Of a DNA stretch of 64,000 nucleotides, positions 4,451-60,824 are shown piece after piece. The position numbers and the translations under genes were made by a program. Origin of the DNA: Aldrovandia affinis (Eukaryota > Chordata > Actinopteri > Notacanthiformes > Halosauridae); assembly GCA_029706075.1 (NCBI GenBank), contig JAINUG010000015.1, positions 620,001 through 684,000 on the forward strand. The letters are read 5' to 3'. Position 1 is the stretch's first letter. Each line of letters opens with the position of its first letter. The notes below the pieces were generated by a model. That model was not told where the DNA came from. It made no database searches and worked only from the letters and a program-made list of their open reading frames with translations.

Positions 4451-5494
4451 GTAAGCACAATAGTGCTCCTGATCCTCCTCTGTGTGAGGCAGGTATTTTC
4501 CCTAAGACAAAACCTCTTGTAAAATCATTAAGACAACAGTTGTTAGTTTTGTCTTGGGGAGTAAAATGTTAAAATATAAATGGACCACATTGATCAAGGG
4601 AGTAGGAGAAAAGGGGACGCAGCATTATCATTATGTTGTTCCTTCTCTTAACTAGCCTTTTTAACAACAACCAAAATCTTCTGTCATAAATACTTGCAAA
4701 CAGCCTTTAAAATGTTACTGATACGATACTGTAGATTGAACAAACAGATGTATTGCAAATAATATAAGGCTGAAGCTTGATATACTTCATTAAACTGGTG
4801 TCATCATTTTAGGTTTATTATTTTAAAGATTTTTACAAGACATTTGATATGGTTGAGCATTTTAGTTCACCTAGAAAATTTGGCCTGGGGACGATTTCAT
4901 TTGTGTTTTAAATACAGCTCTAATATAAGTAATTCTATCAAGGTTCTCCTGCTATCTCCATATGCTTCACCTTGCTATACTCCCTTTGGCTGTTTATATT
5001 ATTTACAGGGATATTCAATTAATCACAATTGTCATAAAATAAATAACTGATGACACCTCTCACAACTCACAAAAATCACAAGTTCCAGAATCAATTAATA
5101 TTAAGAAATGGGAATTAATTTCAGTCAAAGAAAGTGATGGTATGTGATGATCTATTGCTGATATCCCTGTAAAAGAGGAAGTACTTTACTTGGGAATTAG
5201 TATATGTAAAGACTAAGCTGTTAGATGTTCCCAGAATTTAAGTCTGGGAGTCATACAAGTATATTTACAAATTATAGTTGTTAAAAGCTAATTTTACTTA
5301 TTCAATTTACAATTACGAATATTATTGTACAGTGTGTACATTGACATATTTTGGAAGGATGTCAAAACGTTCATTAAAAAACATTAAAACTAATGACATA
5401 TTTTGTATTACTCATAACAATTAGAGCTACATTTCACATCTTTCTAAAATATGTAATTCGTTTTGATGTTTTTAAATACATTTCGGTGTACACA

Positions 5495-22649: not shown

Positions 22650-23964
22650 CATAAACTGGTAACACATAAAATGTGGACATATGGAGTTTCTTTCAAGTTT
22701 AAACTCATTAACATCTTAAAATCAATTACGGGTGTTTGGACAGGTCCTTCCAACCCACTGATCTAAAATAATGTAGGTCAGTGTCCCAACCTGTTGACTT
22801 AGCTAATATTACATTTTTATATAAAATAAATTGACGATAAAACCCTACAAACGTCCCCCAATAAAAATAAACAAAATGTACACCTTTTTGTTATTACTGT
22901 TTCCTTTATGTTTCAAATATTCCAATGTTTTTTTCTAAGCCAACTCGGTCAATGAAAAAGCCTTGCTCCACACTCCAATACAGTAGATGGCGGTATGCAC
23001 CCCTCGTTGGCTTGTTAAAGGCAAAACAACCACAGAAGGCAACAAATTATTCTGTTCAATGACGTATATAGTTAGCTCGTGCGGCGCGCTAAAAATTGAA
23101 GGAATATCATTTTGATACGGAAAGTAGGTAGTTTGCGTGCTAGAGCGAACGTTCGCACGGTGCCAGTAGCAGTTACATGGAAGGCAAGTGGCGTGCTAAC
23201 TGTAAACGAGAATAATATAATGCGTAAACGATAGGTGTTTTTCCTCAATACATAATCAATATTTCCTAAAGTATGCTGACTTTATCGAAACTTTGTTTTC
23301 TCCGTTACTAGTTAACCTAATGGCACAGCAGCTAACGAGTTTGCTAACTTAGCTCGATATGTAACAGCTATATAGCTTGCACAGAAGAATAGAACGTTGT
23401 ATCATATTTTATTAATTTGCCAAGTTGGCCAATATTTCTGTCTGATGTCCACATTGTCACTGATTTCAGACTGACTTTGTTAGTTTGAAAATACCGCCTA
23501 GCGCATTTAGACACATTTGTGGCTTTACTGGTGACTGGTTTTTAGTCAAATATAAATTGGTTAGGGCCCTTGTATTAGCTTTGTCTGTCTAATGTCGTTG
23601 TTTTGGATTATTTGGAAGTCATTGCGCCACGGTCGCTTGGGATTTAAAAAACAATAAACCTGGCAGTGGCCACCCTGATAATATACTGTTAGCTAAATTA
23701 GCTAACGATCGATAGCTAGGGAATGTGCTAGTTTGCCCATTAGCTAGCTAACGTTAGATTGTGGAATTGATTGTTTTGTATATTGCTAACGCTAGATGGT
23801 TATCTGCTGTGTAAAATGAACTTTACACATGCATCTTAGACAGTCACAAAAACACCAATTTGCTATCGAACATGTTTACATAGTGGGATCCTGTGTATCA
23901 AGGCTTTGAAGAACGTCCCTCGCTTCTATTCCTCTCGTTGTTTGCCATTTGGTATCGCATAAAC
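22650..23964 (+). promoter_or_regulatory. Upstream region and 5' UTR of the 19-exon gene
   Basis: No coding exon. A stretch with more CpG at about 23060-23210, and TAGCTAACG-type sequence common near teleost promoters. A site resembling the CTCF consensus (ACAGTAGATGGCGG, 13 of 14 positions) is at 22980-22993. A possible 3' splice acceptor (tttacatag, 23875-23883) lies before the start codon, which suggests a noncoding first exon upstream. Confidence 0.4.
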
Positions 23965-26900
23965 ATGGAGCAAGAAAGTATAATTATTATCAGTGACGGG
24001 GAGGATGACTGTACGACAGTGTCTTTGGACGATTCCTCTGTGTTCATCGTGGAAGCATGTGCCAAGAAAGGAGGTAAAATATCCCCTCTACAATCAAACA
24101 TTAGCACTTTGAAGGAATTGCCAGCTATGTAAACATGTTGCCTATAGGCAGTGGTGGACGAAGTACACAAACCCTTTACTTGAGTAAAAGTAGAGCTACC
24201 ATGATAAAATATTACTCCAGTAAAAGTAAAAGGACCTACATTTAACCCCATTTGCCTTTGAAATGTAGGAATGAAAGTACAAATGGAAATACTTAAGTAA
24301 GCAAAGATACTTGAAAATGTACTTAAGTACAGTAATAAGTCAAAGTAAAGTAAATGCACTTTGTTAGTGTCCACCACTGCATGTTAGTTCACATTTTAAC
24401 TTTAGTTAGTTCACACTTTAAGGTTAGTTCACATTTACTATGCAGTGGTAGTAACTAAGATGTCAACCTGCTGATAATATTTCTGTCATTCTTGATGCGA
24501 TAAAACAAAGTCCTTAACAAGAATCACAAGAACCATCTTTTGAAACGATTTTTCAAGTAGTTTGTTAACATTGCAGTATGAAGTATTGATTTAGCAAGAA
24601 TTTATTTGTATTTGGATACATTTTCAAATATATATACTGCACAAATCATGTTGCATAAACAAATATTTATTTATTTACCCACTCGACATTATGCCATTTC
24701 ATTTCATTGCCATTTCATTTCCAGATGCAATTTATATAGGAGAGGAATAGTTTTTAGAATAATTTATTTCTTCTGTCTATTCATCTTTGGTCCTGCACCT
24801 GCCAGTAAGACAGGATATGTGTGCATGATTTTCTCTTACGTTGCAAGATAATCCAACACCAGAGGTGAATAATACTAGCGAGATTGTGGATGAAGACTTG
24901 GCGGTAACTTTCTCCACAAAGGCAACTGTGATGCCACATGCCAGATATGACTGCGATGCCCATCCTTTCAGGTGAGGTTGACTCAAGGGTTTATATTTAT
25001 TAATGGATAATTCCATTTTTAAGACTGGACCATTACAGGGGGTGGACAAAATAATAGAAACACCAAATATTTATAACGAATAATGGGTTGTCTGTCATTT
25101 GCCTTTAGAACAGCTTCATTCCTTCTTGGAATGTTGTTATACCTCTTAGGCCCTATACGATTTTTAACTGTTTCTAGTGGGATATTGGACCATTCTTTAA
25201 GAAGGAAAGCCTCCAGTTTTTGAGAGATTAAGGTGGTGGGAAATCTCCTATGCACTCTAGTTCCAGAACTTTCCATAAAGATTAATTGATGTTTAGACCT
25301 GGTGATTGGGGAGGCCATGGAAGGTGCTTGACTTCTTCCCTGTGTTCATGAAACCACTCTTGAATAAATATAGCAGTGTGTATGGGGGCACTATCGTCTT
25401 GGAATATTGGAACATCTTGAGGAAACCGTGTTCACATCATAGGGTGCACCTGGTCACCTTAAATGGCATCGTATTCCTTGGCTATAATTCTGCCATCCAG
25501 TGTAATAATAGGACCCAATTACTCCTATGAGATGGGTGCCCATATAATAACAGATCCACCACCATGTTTAACCATTGGGAATAGGCAATGTGGTTTGGTT
25601 TGAAGGCTTCATTTGGCTTTCTCCAAACATAGACCCATCCAGATGTAGTAAAAGAGGAGTAGTTTTTGTTGAGCCTGGATTATGGAGGGGTAGATTTGGT
25701 TCTGTGGTTATTTTTGAGGCCTTGTTTTGTGGTTTTGAGCAACTATCCTGTTAAGTGTCCGTCTTTCCCTGTTGGTGAGCTTCAACTTACGTCAACTTGG
25801 AGTATGCTGTCATGATTTTCGACACTGTTCCCGATGATGCATTAAATAATTTGGCCATTTCTGAGACTGATGCAATTTGAACGCTTTCAAAATCTGTTAA
25901 TAAACTTGCATATAGTGTTGATTTGAAATGTCTTATAGCAGAAACATGTTGGTAATTAGTAATGACATTAATATAAAATGCATGTGTAGACTCATTTTTA
26001 ATTGCGATTTAGTTCCTTCAACATCCTTTAACAAGTCCTTGTCCTTGTGGACAGTGTATCTACTAGGGATGCTAATGTTAAGAAATCGATTGTCGCCCAC
26101 GTTAAACAATGAATCAATTCATCCTACATTTTTTTTTAAACGGCAAAATGTAGCATCTGACCGAGAATACAAAATGCAATTTTTTTTCCTCAATCAAAGC
26201 CAAATTCTCAATCCCGGGGATGCATAAATGCTGTTGTGCTGACTTTGCCAGTCTAGGGAATCGTCCTCTGTTGACTTTCCACCAGTCTGTGTGATTTATA
26301 TCCCGGTAATGTCTTGTGTTGAAAAATGATTTCACCAAAAACTGTGGAAGTAACGTCAGGCGTGCTTTGCGAAGTCAAGAGACCATGCTATTTTTGTCTG
26401 AGGTAACGTTAGGCTATACAAAATATAACAAAAATGTTTTGTTGTAAATTGTTTCTTTTGTGAAATATTGCTAGATATATTTTATGAAAATGAACAAGGT
26501 TTTAACTGTTGTTTCAAAGCAATATTATTATACTCACTAGAGTTTGTGAATAATTCACAAATTCTTAACGGCGATTAATCGATCACCGATTAATCATTAA
26601 CATCCCTAGTATCTACACTTGTGGCAACCAGGCTGCTGAGTATTAGGTAGCTAATTTACATAGCTAAAAGGTCTGCAGTGTGCGCTTGGGACAAAGTAGG
26701 ATGTACACACATCCAAAATAGTTGCAGGTGCAAGGTAAAAATAAAGTAAGTGATAAGGTAGATAAGGACAAATCGTACCTAAGAATAGTACCTGCACACT
26801 TTTCAACAGGTTCTCATCTAGCCCACACTCCAGTATTGTAGATGGCAGTATGCACCTCTAATTGGCTTTATACTGGCAAAAAAACAAAGACCAAAAACAA

Positions 26901-29900
26901 TTCTGTTCATGCCGTACGTTGTTAGCTTGTGTGGTTAATGTTCCTCCTCTCAATTGTCTGCTTGCCAGCTTTCTGATAGGTGGGTGTTTTCTTTCTCAGC
27001 CCAGGTCTATTCTGAAACTCCCTAACTGTGCCCCTGAACCTTTGTTACATTGGTGCAGATTGTAATACATCGATTACAAGTAATTTGATTTTTTATTTTT
27101 TCTATTCATTTTCAAGTCAAACAGAAAATGACACCAGTAACCCAGTTGAAAACAACAACGCTTTCTGTGAGCAGTGTTTCTGTTATATCTGCGATAAGGT
27201 GGCATCAGAGGTAAGGCCAAATATAACTGATTTGCAATTCTGTTTATTGAAAGAAATTGGGGGGGGCGATTTGGTTTGTCACAGCAAAGATACAGAAGGC
27301 AGTGAAAGAACACACAAGACATACAGAATATCACAGTATACTGAAATAATAAATACAAAATAAATATTTTTAAAAAACAGTAAAACCTAGCAGCTATACA
27401 GACATACAGAACATCATAGTATATTGAAATACCAGATGCTGAAATACAAGAATAAAAAAAACCGATCATACTGGAAGTAGTGCAAATCCACCAGATACGC
27501 AGCGCATACCAGTGTACTGAAGTACTTAAAAAAAAAAAAAAAAAAAAAGTAGTTTGTTAACATTGCGGTATGAAGTATTGATTCAGCAAGGATTTATTTG
27601 TATTTGTATACATTTTGAAAAATTACACATACTGCACAAATCATCACGTTGTATAAACAAATATTCATTTCTTTACACACTCTATCCACATTTGCTCTTA
27701 AGTGTCCATATGCCATAATCAACACAATCAGATGAAAAGTATAAACTCTAGAGAGCAATGGATAGATTGTTTAATATTCAAGTGGGTGTAATTCAATAGA
27801 TGGAAAATTACAACAAAACTTTTTTTCTTTGGGGAAAAAGAAAGCTATCCTTCCATATATATATATACTGTATATATATATTTTTTTTTCATACATTAGT
27901 TACAGATTTTTTCTTCCAATTAAGTAGCCAATTACACCCTCTATTTATTTCGATTTACCCATCCCACACGGTTCCGCTGCTCGTCTCTACGAGGCAAGCT
28001 AATTCTCAGAGGGCAGCGAACTCCGCTTCCTTCGAGACGGAATTCGCCCACCCACGTTCTGGAGACTCCTTACGTGCTTCACGGCGGACCCGAGCCGGCT
28101 CACACTCGCCCTGGGGTGGACAGCCAAATGCCGCCCCCGATTGGGGCTGACGACCAGGGCTGGTCTGGTAGAGACGGGTTTTGAACCGTGTCCCTGACAG
28201 GCGATGCGCACCAGCCAAAATATGGTGCGTTAGACCACTACGCTATCCGCCGCCCCCATATTCAGTTTTTGGCTTTCAATGGATAAGTTGCATCTTATGG
28301 CATGACTGGTCTCTGAATTGGATTAATAACTGAAAATGTGTTCATTCTTTAGTGCAAATTGTGGAGCACTGCTGGAATCTGCCACTGCAATGCCCACAAA
28401 CGAAGTGTGTTTTGGAAGGACCAAAGAGACAAGGCCATCCTTGGATACCTTCATATATTTAATTTTGATCTGCTGGAGGTGGATGCAGAACTGAGACTTG
28501 CTGGTATACTTGATCAATTTGTTCAATGCTTTTTAATTGCTGTGTAACGGAATTGTAAAAATGTGTAACTTTGTCCTGACTTGTGACTTTTTCCAAATGT
28601 TCAGAGAGTCTCCTATTGAAGTTTGAAGAAGTCTTGAAAGTGGAGTATGGCACATTTCTGAAGGGTGTGGAGACAGAATTATCAAATATCATCAATTGTG
28701 GCTGCTATTGCCATGCAGCCAATTCATTCACTGCCGGATGCAAAAAATGCAAATCCAGACATGTGGCTGTAGTGTTCTATAAGTAAGAAAATCACATTTA
28801 TTGTATGTCTTTGTTTGGCAATGTGGCAAAATAGTATGTTTTGCCCAATAAAATGTGTTTTTCCTCCAGCTACACCAAAGTGTACAACCTTGTGTCGGAG
28901 TTCCTGGGCAATGCTGAAAAACAGAAACCCAGAACAGCCGCAGTGATGCTGCTCGGAGCGGCTAAACATTTTGTTGTTCACACACAACCGGCAGGGTATG
29001 TGCTTTCTCCTCCTGCATACAAAGCCTTAGGAGTTCTTTATTAGTCAATATGGCTGCTTTAGATTAGATTATTGTTTCAGTATACTGTATAATGTAAATT
29101 CTTAAACTATTAAACTATTTAAACTATTCTCAATTTTCTATCCCCAGTATCCCAAATACAGACCTGAAAGCATACGTTTCAGATGCCGTTCCTTTATTAT
29201 TGATGAGGTAAAGTGTCATAGCAAATACCTTTTGGTTATCAGTGCTAAACAGTAATCCAACATAACTCTTCTATTTTATCAGTGAATATGTTTCTATTAT
29301 AGAGTGACCAACATTCTGAAGAACTTGATGGTTGTCGCCGATTTCAGTGCACCGTTCTCAAAGAAACTGCAAATGTTCTTTCAGTCACTCCCACTGCCGG
29401 TGAAGTGCAGATGGCTGTATAATTGGTGGGCGATAGTTTGGTGCCTCTTGAGTTTTCCACATCAAAATATTTTCAGATTTAATTCATGGTACCTGATGAA
29501 AATGTTTTTTGGACCTTCATTGCAGTCTGAATGTGCTCCAATGGGATGATACTTTGCTGACAGCAGTGCTAAGAGGGCAGAATATCACAGGAGAGCGAAT
29601 TCTGAGAGGGAAGAGAGAGGTCCTGTTTGAGTCAGTGGTTGTGGTACAAGCACGTGTGGAGAAACTCAAGGAGCAGGGAAGGTAAAAATGTCATAATGAC
29701 TAAGATACTATTAAAAACAAAGATGTTTTAGTACATTTAGTCTTTGTTGAATTCGAATTTAGTACTATCCATCGCCGGGTCACCTTAAGTGAACAATTTA
29801 ACTAGAGACTTCATTGCTACATTCAGAGACAGATTACATATTTCCGTAACGATGAACTGTCTGATATGCTTGTATCAATTAAAAAGTTTATCTTAAAAAG

Positions 29901-32900
29901 GATTGATCTTTTTCAGGTACAGGGAGCTGGCAAGATATCTGAAGGTTGTGAGGAGTGATAACAAAATGCAGTGAGCCTTTCTTTTTTCCATCTTAATCAG
30001 CTAAGGTTCGATTTACAGTTGCAATATTTTATCTGCATAGCTGAAGTCCATTTCTCCCTGTTTGTCTGCCTTCTAGTTTGCAGAGCATGAGAGACCAAGT
30101 CCCTTTTTTTCTGTGCAAGGCTGGAGACTACCATGCAGCTCTTCAGAGTTTTTTCAGTTCAACATCGGAGATGTGCTGCAGTGCCTGTCGACTTTCTCCC
30201 AAAGAGTTTGCTGTGTACTTGAAGGTCCTGACCACAGGGAAAATGCCAGTTGGAAAAGACTATTTTCTGTCAACAGAGTGGGAAACTGTCAAAGGTCATA
30301 TCCACATTTTTTCTTGCATTTTATTATATTTGATCATTTTGACCAGTTTTCTCCCAATTTGGAATGTCCAATTTGTGTGTTTAAGCTCATCGCTGCCACC
30401 TGTCAGTTCGGGAGAGTACAAATAAGCACACGCTCTCTTCCTAAACCTGCGATGTCAAGTCCCTGCTTCTTTTTACTCCACGGTCCACCAGTTAAGCTCA
30501 GACGGGCATTGAGTTGGAGGAGGCGCGTTGGTGTGCGATGAGACACGGACACCCCTTTGACTGAGATCCCTCCTATGACTCTATGGCTGATTATAGACCG
30601 CCCTGCAGGGCTGCCAGCCACAGCAGACGCTGGCATGGTCCAAATACCAAACCGTGGAGCCCATCCACAACTAGAACAGTGCCTTAACAGGATCAACCAT
30701 GTAGTAGCCCCGTTATATCCAAGTTTTAAATTAGTATTTGTGCTAGCAGCATTTTCTGTTTGGTGGAATATCTTAAATGTATCTTTTTATTTTGGTAATT
30801 ATAGATGCCAACCTTCCAAAGACGTCTGAGGTCATAAAGTGCAGTTTGAGAATTATGAATTGCAACACAGCAGTGTATATGGATGTAAGTATAAAACGGT
30901 GGTTTGACGCAGTTGATGGCTTTTAGGTTTGCTGGTCCCCGCCTACTCTATAATCAGTTAAACGTTAGTGTGTGTCAGCTCACCTGCTAAACGGTCATTT
31001 GCGTACCAAGCAAGACGACAAACCTTTGAAACATACGCGATGGACTAAGTTTGATCAGTCCATCACTGGTAAGTTCATTTAAATATGGAAAGTACTAAAT
31101 CACTGATTTGGTACCTTCCTGGTACGCAAATGAGCGTTTACCAGGTGAGCTGACGCACGCATTAGCATTTGAGGATGCGAATGCGTATTGGCATACCACT
31201 TATGTGCACCCGTCTGTAATACATATATATATATTTATTTATTTTTATCCCATTTTCTCCCAATTTGGTAGCCAATTACACCCGCTATTTTCAAGTCAGT
31301 CCCCCCCCTCGTAATGTGAATTCGCTGCTGTAGCCCTGTGACCGGTAGTGATGACAGCGAAGTATCGTCTCCTCTGAGACGGTACTCACCAGGCTGTTGA
31401 CTGCAACCCGGTACTACAAAGCCACTCCTGTGCGCAGCGAACATCATGTCTGCTTCCCTGCCCCCTCCCTGGGGCGGACAGTGCTCTTGCTTTTTAAATT
31501 TGTGTCTAGACGGCCTCCCGGGTGGCCCAGTGGTTACAACGTCCAACGCTGGCCACAGAGACCGGGGTTCAATTCCCCGTCTCGCCAGAGTCGGCTCTGG
31601 CCGGGAGTGCCACCGGGGGCGGCGATTGGCTGTCCGTCCCAGGGAGGGGGGAGGGAAGCCGACATGAGATTCGCTGCGCATAAGAGTGGCCCTGCAGTAT
31701 ACCGGGTTACGGGTCTCGGAAGAGGCGTCAGGTCGCGTGTCGCTACCGGTTGCAGGACTACGGCTGCGAACTCACATTACTAGGGGGGGGATTGACTTAA
31801 ATAGCGGGTCTAATTGGCTACCAAATTGGGAGAAAATGGGATAAAAATCTGAAACAAAAATTATTTAAAAAAATTGTGTCTAGACCTCTGTCACTTTTGA
31901 CAAAATAGTCAAATGGTAAGCTGTGTTCAAGATTATGGTGCTAGTTTAACATTTCAAAATGTGTTTGCAGTCAGAACCCTGGGTGAACCTGATCAGTGTG
32001 GCATGTTCTGCAGTGATGGCAGAAGATGGCTCTCTTACCTGTATCTCTTTCCCTGTGCCGGACTTTGAATTTCAGGCGGTAAATGTTCTGAGCTTAGTAT
32101 TTGTTTTTCTTCTACAAAATTTGACATTCTATGACATTAAATGGGGTTAGTGCTGATCACAAGCTTATTTTCTTTTTTAGAGGACAAGGGACATTGCAAC
32201 AGCCATTCTCCTTGATGGACCACACATCCAAATTCCAAAATCATTGCAAAATGTAAGTTTAAGTGGTAAACATGGGTGTTTCTGAATTATTTTGAGGGCA
32301 ACCAGTTGAGGAGGTATTTAATGGGTTTTTTGGGGGTATTTATTTAATTTATTTTTATGCCTAACCTATTTTCATTACTTAATGCAGCGGTTTCCAGATC
32401 AGGCTCTTCTGATGCTCGTCACACAGGCCCTAGTGCACAGGATTAATCAAAGTGGCATGATCAATGTCCTCAACGTCATCATGGCTTTCAAAGTGAGACC
32501 CAAAGTGACATTACATCCCTTAATCACTGCTTTCTGTTGTTTGAATGTCTGTGTACTGTGTTAAGTGGTTTAATGCACAGCAATGGATCACTGTAAAATG
32601 TTATATACAAGTGAAGCAAATCATTTTAAATTTTTTTCATTCAAATTATTGGTGGGATTCAGTATTCCACATTGTGTTAATGTCTTGAACGCAAATATCC
32701 CATCTAGACTAGATGTATAACAATGCTTCTAAAGAACAGAAATACCAATCAAGTGTAAACTATTTTGTCAAACTGTTTTGTAGAAATCTTGCATCAGCTG
32801 TACATTTAAAGTTTCGACTAATTTATTTGCGTTAGTTATATTTATCATACTCTTGGCTTACAATTTTAGTCATTTAAATAAATTAGAAATGACTGACTGG

Positions 32901-33913
32901 TTTTTAGCAAGGTTTTACAGTAAGAAAATGTAATACATCGATGTGTTTTCTGTAAACTGCATAGATTGGTTTCCTGTTACTGAGTTTATTGCATACAGGA
33001 TATGAAAACTGAAGTACATTTGACAAAAGTAATTTACTATGCCGTACTGAATGCACCCTAAAATACCAAGTACTGTTACAATATATCACAACACATGCTA
33101 TATTATACAGTAAGTAACATATAAATATTGTTAGTTACCTTGCTGTCTTGTCTGTAGGCAAATGCATGGGGACTGAAGTGGTTCTACTATGGCCTCTGTG
33201 CCAGGCCTGATACCCTGCAGGCATTCATTCATGGGCTTCTGGAAGAACTTTACCAGGAAAAGCTTGAACAAACCTACCGGTACTAATCATTCAAAATATT
33301 CATATTCATATTATCCTGGACAGTCACACGTCAGGAGGGGAATTTCAACTGCCCATGAAATAATTAATGTCATTTCTTCTTTAGAAAAAAGGAATTGTCA
33401 GATCCTACCTTCATGGCAGACTTTTTCTTTACCTACCTGCTGGACAGCCGCCCACTTTTATTTTCAGTCAACCGTCCAATAATCAATGACCTTTTAAGCC
33501 ATTGGAATGAGTAAGCCTTTGAAATTACATTTATTCTTTCTCTGTGTGTGTGAAATGCATTTGTTGCTTGTTTGACTTATTAAAATTATGCTTTGCTAGG
33601 GAAGTTGACCGCAGAGAACAGATATTTATTTGCTATTTTCAAATGTCTAGGCCTGATTTCCCATGGCAGTACTACCTCCGATGCCTCCTGCAACAATATG
33701 TAAGTGTTTAATATGTTCTATCTGGATCTTTTCATTTTCCACTGCAGCTGTGGCATATTTGGAAGTTAATCCTTTGCTCCTCTGTCTTTTTATTTGATTT
33801 TGTTTGCATAGGAGCTTGAACTTATGCCTGATAAACAGAGGTTCCTGGAGATGATCAGGGCATTGTCTCTAGATGCACGTCCCCGTGGTTGCAGTAAAAC
33901 AACATACAAATGA
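23965..33913 (+). CDS. Unrecognised SUMO-interacting-motif and Cys/His-cluster protein (19 exons)
   Basis: I do not recognise this gene with confidence. Nineteen coding exons join without a frame break to 736 codons: 23965-24073, 24848-24971, 27117-27210, 28353-28503, 28605-28782, 28870-28995, 29148-29207, 29303-29425, 29526-29681, 29917-29970, 30077-30294, 30805-30884, 31971-32078, 32181-32252, 32388-32492, 33158-33279, 33385-33510, 33600-33699, 33812-33913. All introns are GT-AG. Residues 5-15 ([11 protein letters not shown]) and 24-30 (SSVFIVE) look like SUMO-interacting motifs. A first Cys/His cluster is C95, C98, C100, C103, C110, C119, C121, H124; a second is C191, C193, C195, H196, C205, C208, H212. 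Residues 220-735 look mostly helical, with no transmembrane segment. This suggests a nuclear, SUMO-linked protein that may bind zinc. The start ATG has a good context (AACATGG), and no longer in-frame ATG is present. Confidence 0.85.
24149..24379. mobile_element. MITE with CAGTGGTGGA ends, in intron 1
   Basis: Inverted ends CAGTGGTGGAC at the left and GTCCACCACTG at the right enclose a body with repeated tacttgagtaaaagta and acttaagta motifs. This is a MITE common in teleosts. The ends resemble hAT termini, but I cannot see a clean 8-bp target duplication. Confidence 0.75.
25038..25930 (-). mobile_element. Degenerate mariner-type transposon in intron 2
   Basis: Starts ggggtggacaaaataataga, a typical mariner-family terminus in fish. 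On the minus strand it contains broken transposase-like sequence. Several stops and frame breaks rule out activity. A related relic is at 55010-55310. Confidence 0.55.
26064..26608. mobile_element. hAT-type nonautonomous transposon in intron 2
   Basis: An 8-bp target duplication GTATCTAC (26056-26063 and 26609-26616) flanks inverted ends TAGGGATGCTAATG and, in reverse complement, TAGGGATGTTAATG. There is no transposase. The 545-bp length and 8-bp duplication place it in hAT. Confidence 0.9.
27548..27685 (+). repeat. Second copy of a direct repeat (first at 24556-24690)
   Basis: Starts agtagtttgttaacattgc in both places and stays similar for about 135 bp, through the tgcacaaatcat block. One copy is in intron 1 and one in intron 3 of the 19-exon gene. 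A second pair in the same order is 22968-23085 and 26822-26936. Confidence 0.75.
27900..28255 (-). mobile_element. tRNA-derived SINE, second family, in intron 3
   Basis: Read on the minus strand: a head with GGATAGCGTAGTGGTCTAAC and a B-box-like GGTTCAAAACC, a GC-rich body, and a tail containing GTGTAATTGGCTACTTAATT. The same tail occurs in the copies at 31233, 31508 and 44930. The body makes GC-rich open frames that are not genes. Confidence 0.75.
30330..30715 (-). mobile_element. Old SINE copy of the same family in intron 11
   Basis: The left end (ttttctcccaatttggaatg) matches the tail of the SINE copies at 31233 and 31508, but the body is strongly diverged. Boundaries are uncertain. It lies between coding exons 11 and 12 of the 19-exon gene. 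Confidence 0.45.
31233..31483 (-). mobile_element. SINE copy, headless, left arm of an inverted pair
   Basis: Tail at the left (ttttatcccattttctcccaatttggtag in sense), body to CTGGGGCGGACAG at 31483. The tRNA-like head is missing. The reverse complement aligns along its length with 31630-31850. Confidence 0.75.
31508..31850 (+). mobile_element. SINE copy, full-length, right arm of an inverted pair
   Basis: The head holds GGTGGCCCAGTGGTTACAAC and the B-box GGTTCAATTCC. The body follows, then the tail GCTACCAAATTGGGAGAAAA. A near-perfect target duplication flanks it: aaatttgtgtctaga just before and aaattgtgtctaga at about 31870. It therefore inserted as a unit next to the older opposite copy. 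Confidence 0.82.
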
Positions 33914-34367
33914 AATAAGGGACTTCCGTTTTCTTCCAAGATGAAACCACTGACTCGTTATACATTTAAATTATTTTAAATATTTAACGAACCTGCTTTT
34001 TAAAAAGATTTTTCACATGGACCAATACAGCCAGATGCTGTACTTTTGCGGTTTATTTTTTTTTTGGAACATTAAAGGATTGAACCGATTGTTAACTGTG
34101 TATTATAGATAGGTTTTTCATTGGCATGAGTACAGGAATGACAATTGTGGTTTATTGGTTCGCCTTAAACAGTGCATTGAGTTTAATACAATTGGAGTAA
34201 GTGTGAAACTTGTATATTGGGCCGTGGCAATATGAATACAATTTATTTTAAATAATTGGGCCCACTATTTCTCGTGCCGAAGTGAGGTCTTGCTTTTCTT
34301 TTATTGGGACTTTAACGGCTGTGCATTTTTGCAATATCATTTATGTGGCATATTGTCATGCTTGTTT

Positions 34368-34373
34368 AATAAA
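34368..34373 (+). terminator. Polyadenylation signal of the 19-exon gene
   Basis: AATAAA about 455 bp past the stop codon at 33911-33913. It is the first canonical signal I see on this strand after the stop. Confidence 0.6.
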
Positions 34374-34585
34374 ATTTCATTTTTGCTAGGATAAAGTGCA
34401 TTGTGAAAATAACTAAATATTTTGTATGTGACCTCAGCTTTTCTAAGACTTATCCAAGCCTTGGCAAAGTAGAACATGCTGTCAACATGCGACAAAATAA
34501 AAATACTGATTTAAAAAAGTTAACCTGACTACATAGACCACATGGGAATTTCATACCATTGACAAGGTGGTTCGGATTAGATCTT

Positions 34586-36904
34586 TTTATTAAATATAAG
34601 TTTTGATGTTTACAATTGTCAAAACGTACAAAAGCAAATTCTAATAGACCAAGAGAAATAAAAGAAAACAATCAAACATTCCTGTGCAAAATCAAATTCA
34701 GACATTGGCATACATTCAAAAATAGGTACATATTCACTTTTTAATCCGGTCAAAGGATAATTGGATTTTTGGAGCAGGATAAAGCCCTGCACCCTGCCCA
34801 CATACACACACACACACACAAAGGCTGTGTGAATCACTAGATTACACAAGGTATCAAAATCTCCAGATTCATTGTAGAAATTCAGTTATGATACAGAAAT
34901 GAGTTTACTGCAAATGGATTTGGGTAGTAAAAATTGTGTATACAGAATCCGGAGCAAATGTATATGGTGATACATGCTTTTTATATTAGCTTGCTATTGC
35001 CACCTCCATTAAATAATCACAGTAAGGCTTTGGATGAACGACATCCCAATTTCTGAAATGTACTCAAATCCTCCCTCAAATAATGTCTCCACAACAGGCA
35101 ATGCATGGAATGTGTAAATCATTTCAAACAAAATATTAATCCAATCAATTGATCAATTAGAGACCATTTAAAATGATACACATCTCTAGGGGCATGAAAC
35201 AAAACTGCTCTAGTCAACATATTTGACAGACCAAAAGAAACAACCTGTGGAGTGGAAAGAGCCACAGAACATAGACTGGTACAGTTGTGTTGAACCAGTC
35301 ATCAACTTAATTTCAGAAACTGTGACCCTGAATTTACCAGTCAGCATCACTGTCTTATTGCAACAGCTTTACTGAAAATCTTATTTCTGCTTTGATGTGA
35401 TTATTCAAAGATGGAGCAGGAAAATATTTAAGACGACTATAATCAAATGACTGACATGCTGTCTGCTTATGAATCTGAATTATATCTGGTTCTGTAAACA
35501 ACATGTTACTTGTGTCAGGCAGACACCAAAATTACTTGCAGAGTTCAGATTTTGGACAGCAGTGTCCATTTTCTTCTAACAATTATGTCCAGACTGATCC
35601 ACAACACTTTCCAGACAAGAAAAGGTTGATGGATGTTTAGTAAACATAATATTCCTTGAAACATGCAATACCTCGTGAAACCTTTTAAAACCTTGTGAAT
35701 CATTTTACACCACACTACATGCTTGATATTCAGGGACCTACCTGATCCATTTCCATGTAAATACTGAGGGCTAAAAATTGTATGAACCTGTCCTTTTCTT
35801 GTTTCAAGATCTTTAACTTGGAGGGGACTAATACTCGTCATTATTTTAAGGTTAGTGTTCCTTGTTAAGTTTAGTTATTCCTTTTTAAAATGGTTCACAG
35901 GTGGAGCATATGGTCAGTAAAATAGTAGGCCTCTCCAAAGCTATAAACCACCTGAAACAGTTTGAAACTCATTAACATTAGTTAGCATTTATAAAGCATA
36001 GATTAACATGAATTATGGATTTACTGTTTGCATTACTGTGATACCCCACCAATACCAATTGATCATGGTCCCGTTTCACGCAAGCTGCTACTTCACTGTT
36101 CTTATCGGTGTTTCCCCCCTAAAAGTAAAATGTGTGTATGTTTGCATTACATGAAAAAATTATATTTAAAATGTTGCATGTGACTTCAAACATTTCCAAT
36201 ATCAATACCCCTAATCTAGTAGAGAACCAAATAAGCATAATGTAGTGCTTTCATCCAAAAAAGAACTAGGGTGGGGGGATTGTGGGAAGAAAAAGAAAAA
36301 AAAAAAAAAAAACTTTGTGAGAGCTGCTTTAAACAGGAAAACTGCCAATCAATAACACCATTTTTAAATAGTAGTTCAAAGTGTTTTAGTGACAATGAGG
36401 AAAATGCATTAAAATAGAACACTGATCATGATACTTGCCAACTGACCATTTTCAGCTCTCAGCAAAACTGATTTGATCAACAAAAAACATCTTATGACAC
36501 CATAAGGATCATTACTTGCAGGTATAAATTATTTACTTCATAAATCATACTAGCAGGAAGTTTTGGTAATTAGATTATCAGTTACAATACCCCTCTGGAT
36601 CTCTGCTCAATAGTATATATTTCAATAGCGGTTTTTAAATAAGGCTGGCTAATTACATAAATACTAAATAAATATCACAGATCAAAAATTACAACAGTAA
36701 ACCACACTTAACAACAACTGCATGACTCAATCGGCACACATTTGATGACAAACTAAACATGGAATCACATGAACTGAACAAAAGATAATATACATTCATC
36801 GTTTTTCTTCATCACCCATTGCTACAAGAGTAAGAATGAAGGGAACCTCGAGAGTTGTCCAGATGTCACGGTGACAATCTGTCACAAATGTGATAAATTC
36901 AGGC
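34586..36904 (-). other. Probable long 3' UTR of smcr8
   Basis: No coding exon or mobile element was recognised between the smcr8 stop (36905) and the end of the convergent gene. The AATAAA at 34586-34591 on the minus strand would give a 3' UTR of about 2.3 kb ending some 210 bp from the convergent transcript. A short (CA)n run is near 34803. This is inferred from layout only. Confidence 0.4.
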
Positions 36905-38953: not shown

Positions 38954-41513
38954 ACACTGACTTATTTCTTAGGACCTGTTAGTACACTTGTGGTAGAAAC
39001 TGAAAATGGGAAGTAAAATTACACGTGGTATTTCTGCATGTGAAAATTAAATCACTGTTTGATAATCACATGATTTCCAGTTATCAAAAGGGAAGCAGGT
39101 GAAATGAATGAGTGATGCATGATTTAGTTCAAACACTTCACATGTAATTTGTAAGGCTTTACACCAAAATCTTACCTGTGAAGGCCAATAAGCTTCCAGT
39201 TCTGCAGATCAGTCAGATGGAAGGGTGAAGAGAGCCACTGTTTTACAGTTTCCCCATACTTCCCGAGATTGGGTACATAAATTGACAAAGCATTAACCAG
39301 CTTTCTCACTGTCCCCTCATCAGCTCCCAAAACCACTAGAGCCCTGCCACTCAGAAGGCAGAATATGGCTTGCTGAGCAAAGGGGTACTGTCTGATGAAC
39401 CTCAAAGCACTCTGCCCAGCCTTCTTCTTGTGCTTCACAGTAATGGGATTGCCATAAAGAAAAGGTGAATATGTCCTATCAGAGCTAGTGGAAGTACTCA
39501 TGAAGCTGGTGCTGTCAGAGAGGTCATCCAAGTTCATTCTGGGTATCTCATCGGACAGACAGTTGGGGTTCAATTCAAACAGAGGAAGCCCAGCAGAGGA
39601 GGCTTCACAAAAGGTTGCTTGGTCAAGAGAAAAGTCCACATGCAGAGTAGGGTCCCCCTGACGGCAAGACTGTGGCTCCTGTTTCACCACTCCGTTTGCA
39701 CAGCACTCTTGTGCCAGCTCAGGCGAGGACTCTTTATAGGTTTGGCCCTCTTGTCCCATGCAGCATGTTGCCTCCATCTGCACCACAGTCCCTGATTCAT
39801 GAATGCACTCACCCAGAATGTCTGGGGCTGGATTCAACACTGATGTCCGATTGCCTAAAGAATCTGTACAGTTCTCCACAGGCAGTTCCTCTTCATAAAT
39901 GGCACTAGGGTAGGATGCTCGCAAGTCCTCGGGTATAATGGAGTCAGATGTGATCAGGATTTCAATGCTGTCCTCACTGTAAGCCCTCCTAGTGACAATC
40001 CTCCTGACTACTTCAGGATAAGGCAGCTGAAGGTGTGCCACACTGTCTGAATTCACTGTAGGTCCCTGAGTTTTAAAAGACTTCTCAGTTCCCAGAACCT
40101 CAATGCTCTCACCACTGCTTAAACTACCTTTCATTTCAGCATCAATACCTTCATCAAAATTGTCTTGCATGAGGCCACAGGGGCTGGATTCAGAAAACCC
40201 TGTTTCATGAAGCCCTTCTTCATTGGTTTCTGGCTCCAATTTAATAGGCACAGTCTCAACGCAGGAGGTGTAGGAATCCAGACTCAATGGCTCACCTGAC
40301 AGGATGGAGATTGAGGAGGTAGGAGGTTGTTGTTCAGAGTTTGTTTTCCATCACAGAACTGCTGTACAGATTCTTCTTCCTCCCAGTCATTATCTTCAAA
40401 AAGGAAGTTTGTGATTTTCTGTTTCTCAACAAAGCCTGGTCAATCTGACTGGTGTGGATGTAGCACAGATCACCTCGGAATGTCTTCTCAATTAACTTTA
40501 GCTGATCCATTGTTTGATGGAAGAAGTATAAATCACAGAGCTCTTCCAGTGTTTTTAGCCTCTTATCAAAACATTTTGCTGATTTTCCTTTTATAAGCTG
40601 AGGGGTGTAAGAGGGTCTTCGCTTACCACTAATCCTCTGACTTATTTTCAGAGTTGAATTCACTGGATGTTGGTTCATTGTCTATTTCAGCTGTGTCCGC
40701 AGGGTTGTCTGATTCATATGGCAGAAATGCAGGATCTTTCATTTTTCTGTTTGGGTAGGATGTTATCTGCTTTAACAAATCTTTATGCTCATATATAGAT
40801 TTTTCAACGTTGGCTAACTCATTAGCCTTCTCTATTGCTTGGGTTGAAAAGCAGCCATTGTTCTTTTTCTGAAGCTCTGTCTCCTTGTGCAATACACTTT
40901 TGGTATACTCTAAGTCTTTCAGTTTATTTTCTAACTCATTGGCAAATGCCTTTCCTGTTTCCTGTTTTCAAGAACTCAGAGGCCTTGGAAAACTCAGATG
41001 ACAGCTCTTGAAATTGCTGCATGATCTTTCTCTCATCTGCTGAAATATAGGCCATACAGAATGGCCTGACAAAACCACGTGCTTCTAAGTCATAAAGAGT
41101 TAAGATGATGGACATATGCAAATGCACCTTCTTTTGAGTCTCCAAGCACAACTTTTGAGTCCTCCACAAAATTGAGTTTTGGGATAGCCATCCTGGTGGA
41201 TGTCCCACAAAAGAGGCTTGGTAATCCACAGACATGATCCGGAGGAGAAATAGTTGAGATCAAAGGTGCCATGAACTTTAGATTCATCTGGGATGGTGAG
41301 TAAAGGTTGTGGACCAACTTGTTCAGAAAACTCTGAAATTAGAATAAAATCCTTTGTGAATTTAGCATAGGAAGTCTTTGACCAGGGATTAGAATTTCCA
41401 GAATGAGGGAACAGGGGCACAGAAAACTCTTCTGGGATCATCCAGGGGTCGACATATGCCTCCCCAAAACCATCCTCTTTAGTAAAAGCAACCAAATCAG
41501 GGGAACCAATCAT
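36905..41513 (-). CDS. smcr8: smcr8, reading frame broken by seven single-base indels
   Basis: SMCR8 is the DENN-family partner of C9orf72 (with WDR41), a GAP-type complex acting in autophagy and lysosome function. Two coding exons on the minus strand, 39176-41513 and 36905-37361, as in mammals. The protein starts MIGSPDLVAFTKEDGF, contains FILISEFSEQVGPQPLLTIP, KLNFVEDSKVVLGDSKEGAF, GSLSSGESIEVLGTEKS and FIRQYPFAQQAIFCLLSGRA, and ends SFLYKI. Frame changes occur near 41244, 41190, 41101, 40949, 40630, 40423 and 40346 (four missing bases, three extra). Correcting them gives exactly 932 codons (human 937 residues). The last 1.16 kb of exon 1 and all of exon 2 are clean. Residues on both sides of each break are highly conserved, which fits assembly error or very recent inactivation. 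Teleosts can carry two copies, smcr8a and smcr8b; I cannot tell which this is. Confidence 0.93.
38918..38949. repeat. (AT)n microsatellite in the smcr8 intron
   Basis: About 16 AT units in the 1.8-kb intron between the two coding exons of smcr8. No other recognisable element lies in that intron. Confidence 0.95.
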
Positions 41514-49217: not shown

Positions 49218-51325
49218 TTACATTTGTAACAGTATTTCTGGCTCAGATATGGCACAGTACAGCATAAAACCAATTTCATCTATCTCTTCTTCCGTGAAAT
49301 CAGATAGCAAATTTACTGTCTGCTTGAAGTAGCTGGGTAGACAACCTATTTCCAGGTAACTAATGATCTCAGTGATGGCCTGCTGGAATCTATCAGCCAA
49401 AGCAGCCTCTGTCCAATCGTATTCCTTCTCACTGAGATGCAAAATGACATTTGTCAGGTGTCCACCCGAGAGCTTCCTCAAAGGGGGGCTAGTTTTGCAC
49501 ACTGCCTTGAGGATTTTTAAGCACTGTTTTCGGAGACCACGGTCCTCTTCATCCAACTCTGCAAGCTTGGTGGTTTCGGAGGTATAAAGACTGTGGTACC
49601 AAGTGTTGTCAAAGTTGCCGGTGAACTCCAGTTGGGCGGTCAGTACAGTGTCATTCAAGCGTATGACGGGTAAGATGCTTAAGAATAGCTGGCGCTGTCC
49701 ATTCTTAATCTCTAGCTTCAGCTCCTGAGACCCCATCACTGGTCTGACCACACACTCAAGTGTGTTGCTGATCGAGGGCCAGTTCATGGTCTCCATCACA
49801 GACTTGTTCAGGACTTCAACTATTGTATTGGAAGACAGGTAACACCCAACCATGAATTTGTCCCAGAAGCTGCGGCCACGGGGAAAGTACTCCAGGTTTA
49901 CCCGGCGGACCATCCAGAACTGCGGTTTACTCAGGATCGTTTCCTCACCTGGGATCAGCTTCCATAGCACGTCCTCAATTTGCAAAGGCACTAGGAGACA
50001 GGCGTGGTCTGCAGTCACGACCTGGAGGTCGTCCAGCAGGGAACCGCCCAGGTGCATCTCCCCCAGGGGCATGTCGGGGTGCTTGGTGTGGAGGAAGCCT
50101 TGGATTTCTGTGCATATATCCAGAGCCTGTTGTTGAGCTTGACTCACTTCCTCCGCAGAGAGTGCTACATGAGAGTGGTAGTACTGCTGCAGCCTCTCCT
50201 GGAGGCTGACACACAGCTGGAGCCTCTTCACTTCAACCTTGGGCTTTTCTTCAATAGCACTGGATGGTTTGGATAACTCTGCTAAAGTACAATCAAAAGG
50301 TTGGGCTGCCTAAATTCACTTTTGTAAATAACAAAGCTGTTTCAGAGAATACGTCATACTTCAAATCAAATACTCAACAGCGTAAATATTATTTTTCCAC
50401 TTGTCTCTGCTTTTTCAAGATAACCTTCCCCCCAAGCCCCATGAACAAATCTGTTCACTTGAACCTAGAGAGAACATTCTGAAACAGACTTAAACATTCT
50501 GAAGATTTGAAGGACTAAAAATATTAAATGTTATTGGTCACCGCTTAACTCAAATTCAAATTCAAATCTACTTGAAACGGAAAAGCACTGCAACATTAAT
50601 ATTTGCACGTACTGTACATTTCTGAGACAGCCAAATACAAAATATTGAAGTACCTTTACGAGCTTTGGTAGCAGCAGCGATTTGCGTCATAACCACCCCC
50701 TCGATGCTTTTCCTCAGGAGCTTTGGGGATGCGCTAACCAGGCTCAGCTCCTCCCAGGCATCTATGGGCTTTTGGTCTGGTTTCTCATCATCTGGGACTC
50801 TGCCAGCACGTTCAATCAGCTGCAGCAGCACAAAACACGTATAGGAGCACTCGCACGTTTCTTTTTTGTGACTTTATAACTCATGGTTCTGTGTTACAGG
50901 AGTGGGAATAAATCATCTCAAGAGTAAACAAGATCCATTTACATTTACATTTTAGGCGTTTAGCAGACGCTCTTATCCAGAGCGACTTACACAGTTTACA
51001 TTTCTTTACATACAATCCATTTATACAGCTGGATATTTTACTGAAGCAATTCAGGTTCAGTACATTGCTCAAGGGTACAACAGCAGTGCCCCACCTGGGA
51101 ATTGAACCTGCAACCTCTGAGTTACAAGCCCAGCTCCCTAACCATTGCACTACACTGCCAGCCTATAATTCACAGGATTTAGGTCTGCTTACCCGTTTCA
51201 CGGCCAGCGTTGCTATTCCGAGAACCGCTGCTCCCCACCCCGAGCACCAAGCGGGCATTTGCAAGAAGGAAGTCGATAACGGCAGCAAAGCCATCCTCCC
51301 CCCTCCTCTTCCCTCGATAGTCCAT
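49218..51325 (-). CDS. mief2: Mitochondrial dynamics protein MiD49 (mief2), one-base frameshift in the first coding exon
   Basis: An outer mitochondrial membrane receptor that recruits the fission GTPase Drp1. Three coding exons on the minus strand: 51193-51325, 50654-50819 and 49218-50281. The N-terminus is MDYRGKRRGEDGFAAVIDFL followed by LANARLVLGVG, the start of the single membrane anchor. One extra G in the run at 51233-51236 then shifts the frame. In the other frame the anchor continues AAVLGIATLAVKR and joins exon 2 (LIERAGRVPDDEK) in phase. With that base discounted the product is 453 residues (human MIEF2 454). The large last exon carries the nucleotidyltransferase-like domain: LQVVTADHACLLVPL, RRVNLEYFPRG, HLTNVILHLSEKEYDWTEAA and EEEIDEIGFMLYCAISEPE. 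Sequence alone fits MIEF2 or MIEF1; the smcr8 neighbour argues for mief2. A SINE lies in the first coding intron. Confidence 0.92.
50937..51163 (-). mobile_element. tRNA-derived SINE in a mief2 intron
   Basis: Reverse-strand copy of the SINE at 22318-22551. The tail (ttagcagacgctcttatcca) is at the left, and the head with B-box GGTTCAATTCC and AGTGCAATGGTTAGG is at the right. It appears complete. Confidence 0.88.
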
Positions 51326-59017: not shown

Positions 59018-60263
59018 CACTATATGGCCAAAAGTCAGTGGACACCTGACCATCACACCTATATGAGCTTGTTGGACATCCCATTCTAAAACCATGGGCA
59101 TTAATATGGAGTTGGACCCCCCTTTGCTGCTATGACAGCTGCCACTCTTCTGGGAAGCCTTTCCACAAGATTTTGGAGTGTGTCTGTGGGACTTTGTGCC
59201 CATTCAGCCAAAAGAGCATCTGTGAGGTCAGGCACTGATGTTGGACGAGAAGGCCTGGCTCGCAATCTGCATTCTAATTCCTCCCAAAGGTGTTCAATGG
59301 GGTTGAGGTCAGGGCTCTGTGCAGGCCAATCAAGTTCCTCCACACCAAACTTGTCTAACCATGTCTTTATGGACCTCGCTTTGTGCACAGGGGCACAGTC
59401 ATGCTGGAACAGCAAAGGGCCTTCCCCAAACTGTTGCCACAAAGTTGGAAGCGCCCAATTGGCTATGTCTTCTTATCCTGTAGCATTAAGAATACTCTTA
59501 ACTGGAACTAAGGGGCCTATCCCAAACGCTGAGAAACAGCCCCAGACCATTATCCCTCCTCCACCAAACTTTACAGTAGGCACTATGCATTCCGGAAGGT
59601 AGCGTTCTCCTGGCATCCGCCAAACCCAGATTCGTCCATCAGACTGCCAGATAGTGAAGCGTGATTCATCACTCCAAAGAACATGTTTCCACTGCTCCAG
59701 AGTCCAGTTGCGGCGTGCTTTACAACACTCCAGCTGACGCTTGCCATTGCGCATGGTGATGTGAGGCTTGTGTGCAGCTGCTTGGCCATGGAAACCCATT
59801 CCATGAAGCTCCCAACGCACAGTTATTGTGCTGATGGTGCTTCCAGAGGCAGTTTGGTACTCTGTAGTGAGCGATTCAGCAGATGATAGGCGATTTTTAC
59901 GCGATATGCGCTTCAGCACTCGTCGGCCCCGCTCTGTGAGTTTGTGTGGTCTACCACTTCATGGCCAAGCTGTTGTTGCTCCTAGGCACTTCCACTTCAC
60001 AATAAAAGCACTTACAGTTGACCGGGGCACATCTAGTAGGGCAGAAATTTCACGACCTGACTTGTGGCAAAGGTGTCATCCTATAACAGTGCTGCGTTCA
60101 AAGTCACTGAGCTCTTTACGAACCATTCTGAATTCTAAATGTTTGTCTGTGGAGATTTCATGGCTATGTGCTGGATTTTATGCACCTGTTGGCAATGGGT
60201 GTGGCTGAAACACCTGAACTCAATAATTAGTAGGGGTGTCCACTGACTTTTAGCCATATAGTG
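59018..60263 (-). mobile_element. Tc1-like transposon with both ends
   Basis: Inverted ends begin CACTATATGGCCAAAAGTCA at the left and, in reverse complement, CACTATATGGCTAAAAGTCA at the right. TA precedes the left end; the right TA has mutated. Length of 1246 bp is typical for full Tc1 elements of fish. It carries the transposase pseudogene at 59101-60126. Confidence 0.92.
59101..60126 (-). pseudogene. Tc1 transposase with three nonsense codons
   Basis: One frame of 342 codons runs from ATG at 60126 to the stop at 59101, with no frameshift but three internal stops: TGA near 60078, TGA near 59960 and TAA near 59472. The N-terminal helix-turn-helix region is readable. The catalytic DDE residues remain visible in WSDESRF, FQHDCAPVHKA and PDLNPIEHLWEEL. 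Both TGA codons could derive from CGA by CpG decay. Inactive as read. Confidence 0.9.
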
Positions 60264-60271
60264 TGGATATA

Positions 60272-60824
60272 CACTACCGTTCAAAAGTTTGGGGTCACCT
60301 TCCATCTGGACTATGGCTAATCGGGCACTCCTTCATTCTTCAGCAAGATAACAACCCGAAACACACCTTGAAGTTGTGCAAGAACTATCTGGTGAAGGAG
60401 GAATGTGAACAACAACTCAAACTAAAGACCTGGCCTGCCCAGTGTCCAGACCTCAATCCCATAGAACTTGTATGGGACAAACTGGAAAGGAAGAGTCAAA
60501 GCAAAGCAACCCACAAGTTTCTCTGGGAATTGCTGCAGGATAGCTGGGAAAACATGTCGGGTGATTTCCTGCTAAAACTTATTAACCGAATGGCCACTGT
60601 TTGTGAGGCTATTCTCACGCCAAAGGGTGACTATTTTGAGGAATCCAAGATTCAATTTTCAATATAATCTTCTGGAACATTTCTTTGATGTTCATTTTGT
60701 TCATTGTTACATGTGGTTTTTGTCATTTTAAAGTATTTACAGAAATGTATACGGTGTAAAGCATTGTCAATTATGAGATAAAAATAGTTTCCAGCAGGTG
60801 ACCCCAAACTTTTGAACGGTAGTG
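60272..60824 (+). mobile_element. Deleted Tc1-like element with intact ends
   Basis: Ends CACTACCGTTCAAAAGTTTG and the exact reverse complement at the right, flanked by TA (60270-60271 and 60825-60826). Length is 553 bp, so about two thirds of a full element is missing. Confidence 0.92.
60326..60666 (+). pseudogene. C-terminal part of a Tc1 transposase
   Basis: An open frame with FILQQDNNPKHT (second catalytic Asp) and PDLNPIELVWDKLE (catalytic Glu) to a normal C-terminus. The DNA-binding domain and first catalytic Asp were deleted with the internal part of the element, so it cannot act alone. Confidence 0.88.

Follow-up and report, generated by a model that had tools for sequence, protein, structure and literature searches.

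The window, i.e., the whole 64,000-nucleotide stretch of Aldrovandia affinis DNA analyzed here (contig JAINUG010000015.1, positions 620,001 to 684,000), carries on its forward strand an intact gene of 19 coding exons, whose product combines two SIM-like motifs at the N-terminus with two Cys/His clusters and a long C-terminal region. A preliminary description had considered this a real, intact gene that it could not place in a named family, and both points are borne out, the first by the agreement of exon chain, codon usage, and splice consensus, and the second by profile searches without a Pfam or NCBIfam match and PDB sequence searches without a credible relative. A single-copy vertebrate protein of 735 residues that lacks a relative in Pfam and NCBIfam and a credible one in the PDB represents a real gap. 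Tentatively, we regard it as an uncharacterized nuclear scaffold with a SUMO-binding N-terminus, a zinc module, and a C-terminal platform. The gene has no model, and the present results do not indicate any unusual mechanism.

Gene structure

The exon chain between positions 23965 and 33913 was re-derived from the DNA (Table 1). All 18 introns are of the GT-AG type, and the 2,208 coding bases of the joined exons specify 735 residues followed by a terminal stop, which is the only one in frame 0; the other two forward frames contain 40 stops each, and the reverse frames contain 22, 23, and 37. Since the exons had been picked as open, the open frame is a partly circular argument, and tests of codon usage and splice consensus were added for this reason. 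A codon-usage score derived from four open stretches of neighboring genes reached 111 bits in the true frame versus 27 and 41 in the other forward frames and 53, 30, and 7 in the reverse ones. Exon by exon, the true frame ranked at the top in 12 of 19 and was outscored in the other seven, by a clear margin in exons 4 and 8 and by a narrow one in exons 7, 10, 12, 14, and 18. The donor sites had a mean consensus score of 6.28 (n = 18) versus 4.32 for the 3,687 GT sites of the window (z = 6.8), and the acceptor sites a mean of 12.8 (n = 18) versus 9.0 for its 3,827 AG sites (z = 6.4). By frame, codon usage, and splice signals, this is a real and intact gene.

The start codon has an A at position -3 and a G at +4 and lies 84 bases downstream of an in-frame stop (position 23881), with no ATG of the same frame between them. 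The presence of a CpG-rich stretch upstream of the ATG makes a non-coding first exon possible. At the other end, pattern matches alone gave additional candidate polyadenylation signals, namely, ATTAAA at 34071 and others at 34496 to 34657.

Table 1 Features of the 19-exon gene and its flanks (positions in the window)
Feature	Positions	Strand	Basis
CpG-rich stretch, candidate promoter	ca. 22801..23400	.	Observed/expected ratio of 1.1 to 1.3; inference
Coding exon 1 (start codon; both SIM-like motifs)	23965..24073	+	Exon re-derivation; start context, upstream stop
SIM-like motif 1, residues 6 to 10, followed by an acidic patch	23980..23994	+	Pattern; counted from the start codon
SIM-like motif 2, residues 26 to 30	24040..24054	+	Pattern
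Coding exon 2	24848..24971	+	Exon re-derivation
Coding exon 3 (C95, C98, C100, C103)	27117..27210	+	Exon re-derivation, motif positions
First Cys/His cluster, residues 95 to 124, interrupted by intron 3	27166..28397	+	Motif positions
Coding exon 4 (C110, W113, C119, H120, C121, H124)	28353..28503	+	Exon re-derivation, motif positions
Coding exon 5	28605..28782	+	Exon re-derivation
Second Cys/His cluster, residues 191 to 212, inside exon 5	28697..28762	+	Motif positions
Coding exon 6	28870..28995	+	Exon re-derivation
Coding exon 7	29148..29207	+	Exon re-derivation
Coding exon 8	29303..29425	+	Exon re-derivation
Coding exon 9	29526..29681	+	Exon re-derivation
Coding exon 10	29917..29970	+	Exon re-derivation
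Coding exon 11	30077..30294	+	Exon re-derivation
Coding exon 12	30805..30884	+	Exon re-derivation
Coding exon 13	31971..32078	+	Exon re-derivation
Coding exon 14	32181..32252	+	Exon re-derivation
Coding exon 15	32388..32492	+	Exon re-derivation
Coding exon 16	33158..33279	+	Exon re-derivation
Coding exon 17	33385..33510	+	Exon re-derivation
Coding exon 18	33600..33699	+	Exon re-derivation
Coding exon 19 with stop codon	33812..33913	+	Exon re-derivation
AATAAA, candidate polyadenylation signal	34368..34373	+	Pattern match only

SIM-like motifs and Cys/His clusters

The predicted protein has a mass of 84 kDa and a pI of 6.25, and its first 90 residues are acidic, with a calculated pI of 4.05. 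Both SIM-like motifs are located in the first 31 residues, together with adjoining acidic and serine residues. Two such clusters within the first 35 residues were found in 4.2% of local shuffles and in 0.45% of whole-protein shuffles, and the motif has to be considered a cheap one, since four further SIM-like clusters occur elsewhere in the protein. No obvious classical nuclear localization signal was seen when the protein was scanned by eye.

The first Cys/His cluster consists of C95, C98, C100, C103, C110, C119, H120, C121, and H124 and the second of C191, C193, C195, H196, C205, C208, and H212. Around the first, the protein displays the signature PHxRxxC...PF...CxxCxCYxCD...C..W...HCxA...W. 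The spacing of the cysteines and histidines suggests that they may bind zinc. Compared with shuffled sequences, the crowding of these two residues gave P values of 0.013, 0.041, and 0.020 in windows of 36, 52, and 140 residues, respectively, and 0.55 in a window of 12 residues; the clusters thus exceed the expectation from composition, but not by much. As to the layout, the preliminary description had located the motifs and both clusters correctly, but its statement that the first cluster follows within 60 residues does not hold, as it starts 65 residues past the second SIM-like motif.

Searches for relatives

When the full protein was compared to its own genome (1.22 Gb, 2,576 contigs), 19 stretches were recovered, all of them within the 19-exon gene, with the 15 best candidates scored, so that distant copies could escape. 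As far as this search reaches, the gene is single copy. The middle segment alone gave three matches, all in the gene, while the Cys/His module gave five (three in the gene and two weak ones, with E values of 2.44 and 6) and the C-terminal segment seven (four in the gene and three weak ones, with E values of 0.83, 0.83, and 2.86). The five weak matches outside the gene (E values of 0.83 to 6) were taken as chance.

The most promising of these five in appearance, L023, retains 13 of 34 residues without gaps, including C..CDK.A.....W....ICH.NA.K, which cover the conspicuous positions in the first Cys/His cluster. Not one of 200,000 shuffles reached 13 identities, a result that we discounted because the match had been picked from a 1.2-Gb genome, which the shuffles ignore. 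L023 is located at ca. positions 4962 to 5063 of L031, downstream of and on the same strand as open frames matching Pfam amino acid permeases, and we read it as sitting in an intron of the permease gene. Upstream of L023, the strongest candidate splice acceptor contains no more than 8 pyrimidines out of 16, and a Pfam search of L023 gave no match. On these grounds, L023 was attributed to chance, although it is the one lead that might be worth reopening. Two other matches were also discarded, L024, which keeps CHCN...WK but contains a stop, and L030, which is devoid of the Cys/His cluster.

Beyond this genome, the profile searches of the protein returned no family at an E value of ≤10 in either Pfam or NCBIfam, and the PDB sequence search returned nothing at the same threshold, whether queried with the whole protein, with its Cys/His module, or with the middle segment. 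The C-terminal segment matched four PDB chains with E values of 0.25 to 1.4, which we took as chance; two belong to pTAC6/PAP8 and the other two to a bacterial sugar-phosphate transferase. None of 3 pattern matches in viral contigs or of 19 in bacterial and archaeal genomes was confirmed, and phages provided no relative at an E value of ≤0.1; these negatives are weak because the viral and the bacterial and archaeal searches, which started from six short peptides, find close relatives only and because all these collections are the wrong places for a vertebrate gene. The gene is likely to be a conserved orphan and not a new kind.

The periodicity of the C-terminal region, estimated by the hydrophobic moment, gave z scores of 1.84, 0.73, and -1.09 for three C-terminal segments and of 0.84 for residues 136 to 735, which is not significant versus shuffles as support for a helical solenoid. 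By eye, the protein outside its N-terminal part appears helical, an impression that these tests do not back beyond shuffles.

A putative nuclear SUMO-binding scaffold

In the working that we propose as the likeliest, the acidic and probably unstructured residues 1 to 90 would grip SUMO on modified nuclear proteins through the two hydrophobic-acidic motifs. The cluster at residues 95 to 124, perhaps with that at 191 to 212, would fold round zinc and either set the orientation or give a second contact, and a partner might be held by the other ca. 500 residues, folded into a globular and probably mostly helical platform. We infer the scaffold role and its nuclear location, the helical platform, and the binding of SUMO and zinc. 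Counted in favor of the nuclear scaffold were the frame, the codon usage, the splice signals, the SIM-like motifs, the Cys/His crowding (three of four windows), and the acidic N-terminus, and counted against it were the commonness of the SIM-like motif, a helical periodicity not clearly above shuffles, and the lack of an obvious classical nuclear signal. A SUMO reader would be compatible with the motifs, the statistics of which are modest. There is a published precedent in SIMC1, described as having N-terminal SIMs and, toward the C-terminus, a helical domain by which cargo is brought to SUMO-rich bodies (PMC9708086). We would consider SIMC1 a precedent for the layout and not a demonstrated relative.

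The ancestry of such a scaffold could be supplied by a reading that is compatible with it and that we hold to be possible, although far from secure, namely, that the gene represents the animal side of a family spread across eukaryotes, to which the plant RIN13-like proteins would also belong, and in which an N-terminal SIM-SIM-zinc module brings partners into the nucleus and the C-termini are lineage specific. A resemblance to plant RPM1-interacting protein 13 (RIN13) had been suggested in the preliminary description. The plant proteins carry a CxxCxCYxCD...C..W...HCxA signature, with which that of the fish protein would agree, and PANTHER groups them with zebrafish zgc:112980 as PTHR33443. 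The likeness would extend to the upstream PHxRxxC...PF and to the N-terminal hydrophobic-acidic motifs. However, the C-terminal stretch of 500 residues is not known to have a counterpart in plants and would stay unexplained. If the kinship is right, this family already includes the gene; otherwise, the gene would constitute an orphan family. In open-license text, no literature was found under the names zgc:112980 or PTHR33443, a negative of little weight since names with a colon are unsearchable as written. Among the papers listed for RIN13, a spelling variant, or sequence words, no title linked the plant family to the fish gene, which counts against the kinship, and a search for RIN13 together with SUMO matched a review of plant coactivators. 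On the favorable side, RIN13 is described as a nuclear protein (PMC9531352) and reportedly causes PAD4 to move into the nucleus (PMC8831314), which, if the kinship holds, would also favor the nuclear scaffold.

A bolder version, which we find doubtful, would be an ancient SUMO-reading zinc module common to plants and fish that serves in both to relocate immune or chromatin proteins to the nucleus, with this gene as the single fish copy bearing a large private C-terminal platform. If the putative kinship with a plant immune regulator is true, a knockout in fish or in a cell line would reveal the role of the shared module outside plants.

The modest statistics of both motif types and the missing classical nuclear signal would also suit a cytoplasmic scaffold of another kind, in which neither the Cys/His clusters nor the SIM-like motifs have any meaning. 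With nine cysteines and histidines in residues 95 to 124 and seven more gathered within the 22 residues of the second cluster, we think this unlikely.

An adaptor of SMC5/6 of the SIMC1/SLF1 type (Nse5-like), with N-terminal SIMs and an SLF2-binding alpha-solenoid, would share with this protein the order of its parts, in which the SIMs precede a long C-terminal region, and the tandem N-terminal SIMs typical of SIMC1 are present here as two SIM-like motifs, by pattern only. Moreover, SIMC1 itself was not linked to its yeast counterpart by standard sequence searches. Its SIMs lie in a large disordered region, whereas the SIM-like motifs here are confined to residues 1 to 31, and the passages considered name no Cys/His cluster in SIMC1 (PMC9708086). 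The clusters are an extra of the 735-residue protein, there is no sequence match between the two, the PDB search found only the four weak chains of other kinds and no such domain, and the helical periodicity was not significant. We consider this assignment improbable.

That the C-terminal region is partly derived from a transposase is scarcely credible, for although 54 of its residues are 37 to 38% identical to part of a 254-amino-acid open frame in L028 (presumably a transposase) and L029, 5.8 kb away, gives the same match, the two being read as a repeated open frame, the genome-wide E value is 0.83, the pairwise E value of 3e-7 ignores the choice from 1.2 Gb, and Pfam names no transposase in the L028 frame.

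Genomic neighborhood

Upstream, the gene is flanked on the forward strand by a PPR-repeat gene (Pfam PPR_2, E value of 1.6e-6 and 28.5 bits versus a cut-off of 30), which we take to be PTCD1. ARAGORN detected no tRNA genes in the window. Pieces of Tc1-type transposons were matched, which, together with the vertebrate neighbors, suggest a fish genome. The downstream neighbor, on the reverse strand, is SMCR8, which matched PDB SMCR8 chains with E values of 5.5e-34 and 3.6e-81, and beyond it lies a MID49/MID51 gene, also on the reverse strand (Pfam MID51-like, 1.8e-86; PDB MID51, 1.9e-109).

Weak matches to the gene product elsewhere in the genome

Two parts of the 735-residue product had weak matches elsewhere in the A. 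affinis genome. The 34-residue frame in the stretch L023 reproduces the spacing of the first Cys/His cluster (residues 95-124), C..CDK...W....ICH.NA, with 13 of 34 residues identical (E 2.44 in the own-genome search). Amino acid permease exons lie upstream of this frame, which probably sits within an intron. In L028, 54 residues of a transposase-like frame resembled the C-terminal part of the product (37% identity, not significant genome-wide), and the same match was found in another stretch, L029.

Features of the window and of the matching stretches
Feature	Location	Strand	Remarks
Frame in L023	1501-1602 (L031, a stretch also containing it, about 4962-5063)		34 residues; weak match to first Cys/His cluster
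Transposase-like open frame	L028 1333-2097	-	254 aa
Inverted repeat, intron 2	window 26053-26619		25-nt arms, 88% complementary; spacing 517 nt
Inverted repeat, intron 12	window 30970-31158		39-nt arms, 92% complementary; spacing 111 nt
Nested inverted repeats, intron 12	window 31241-31848
SMCR8	window 39172-41513	-	downstream neighbour
MID49/MID51-type gene	window 49218-50231	-	downstream neighbour
Tc1-type transposase pieces	window 59473-59919 and 60263-60667	opposite	Pfam HTH_Tnp_Tc3_2 and DDE_3

Repeats within the introns

In the nested repeats of intron 12 the outer arms are 50 nt long (98% complementary), the inner ones 62 and 70 nt (84-86%). They possibly represent two tRNA-derived SINE copies inserted in head-to-head orientation, although their identification as SINEs was made by eye; ARAGORN found no tRNA in the window. 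The arms of the intron 2 repeat look like the termini of a small DNA transposon. Elsewhere in intron 2, positions 25040-25900 resemble, as judged by eye, a decayed Tc1-type transposon.
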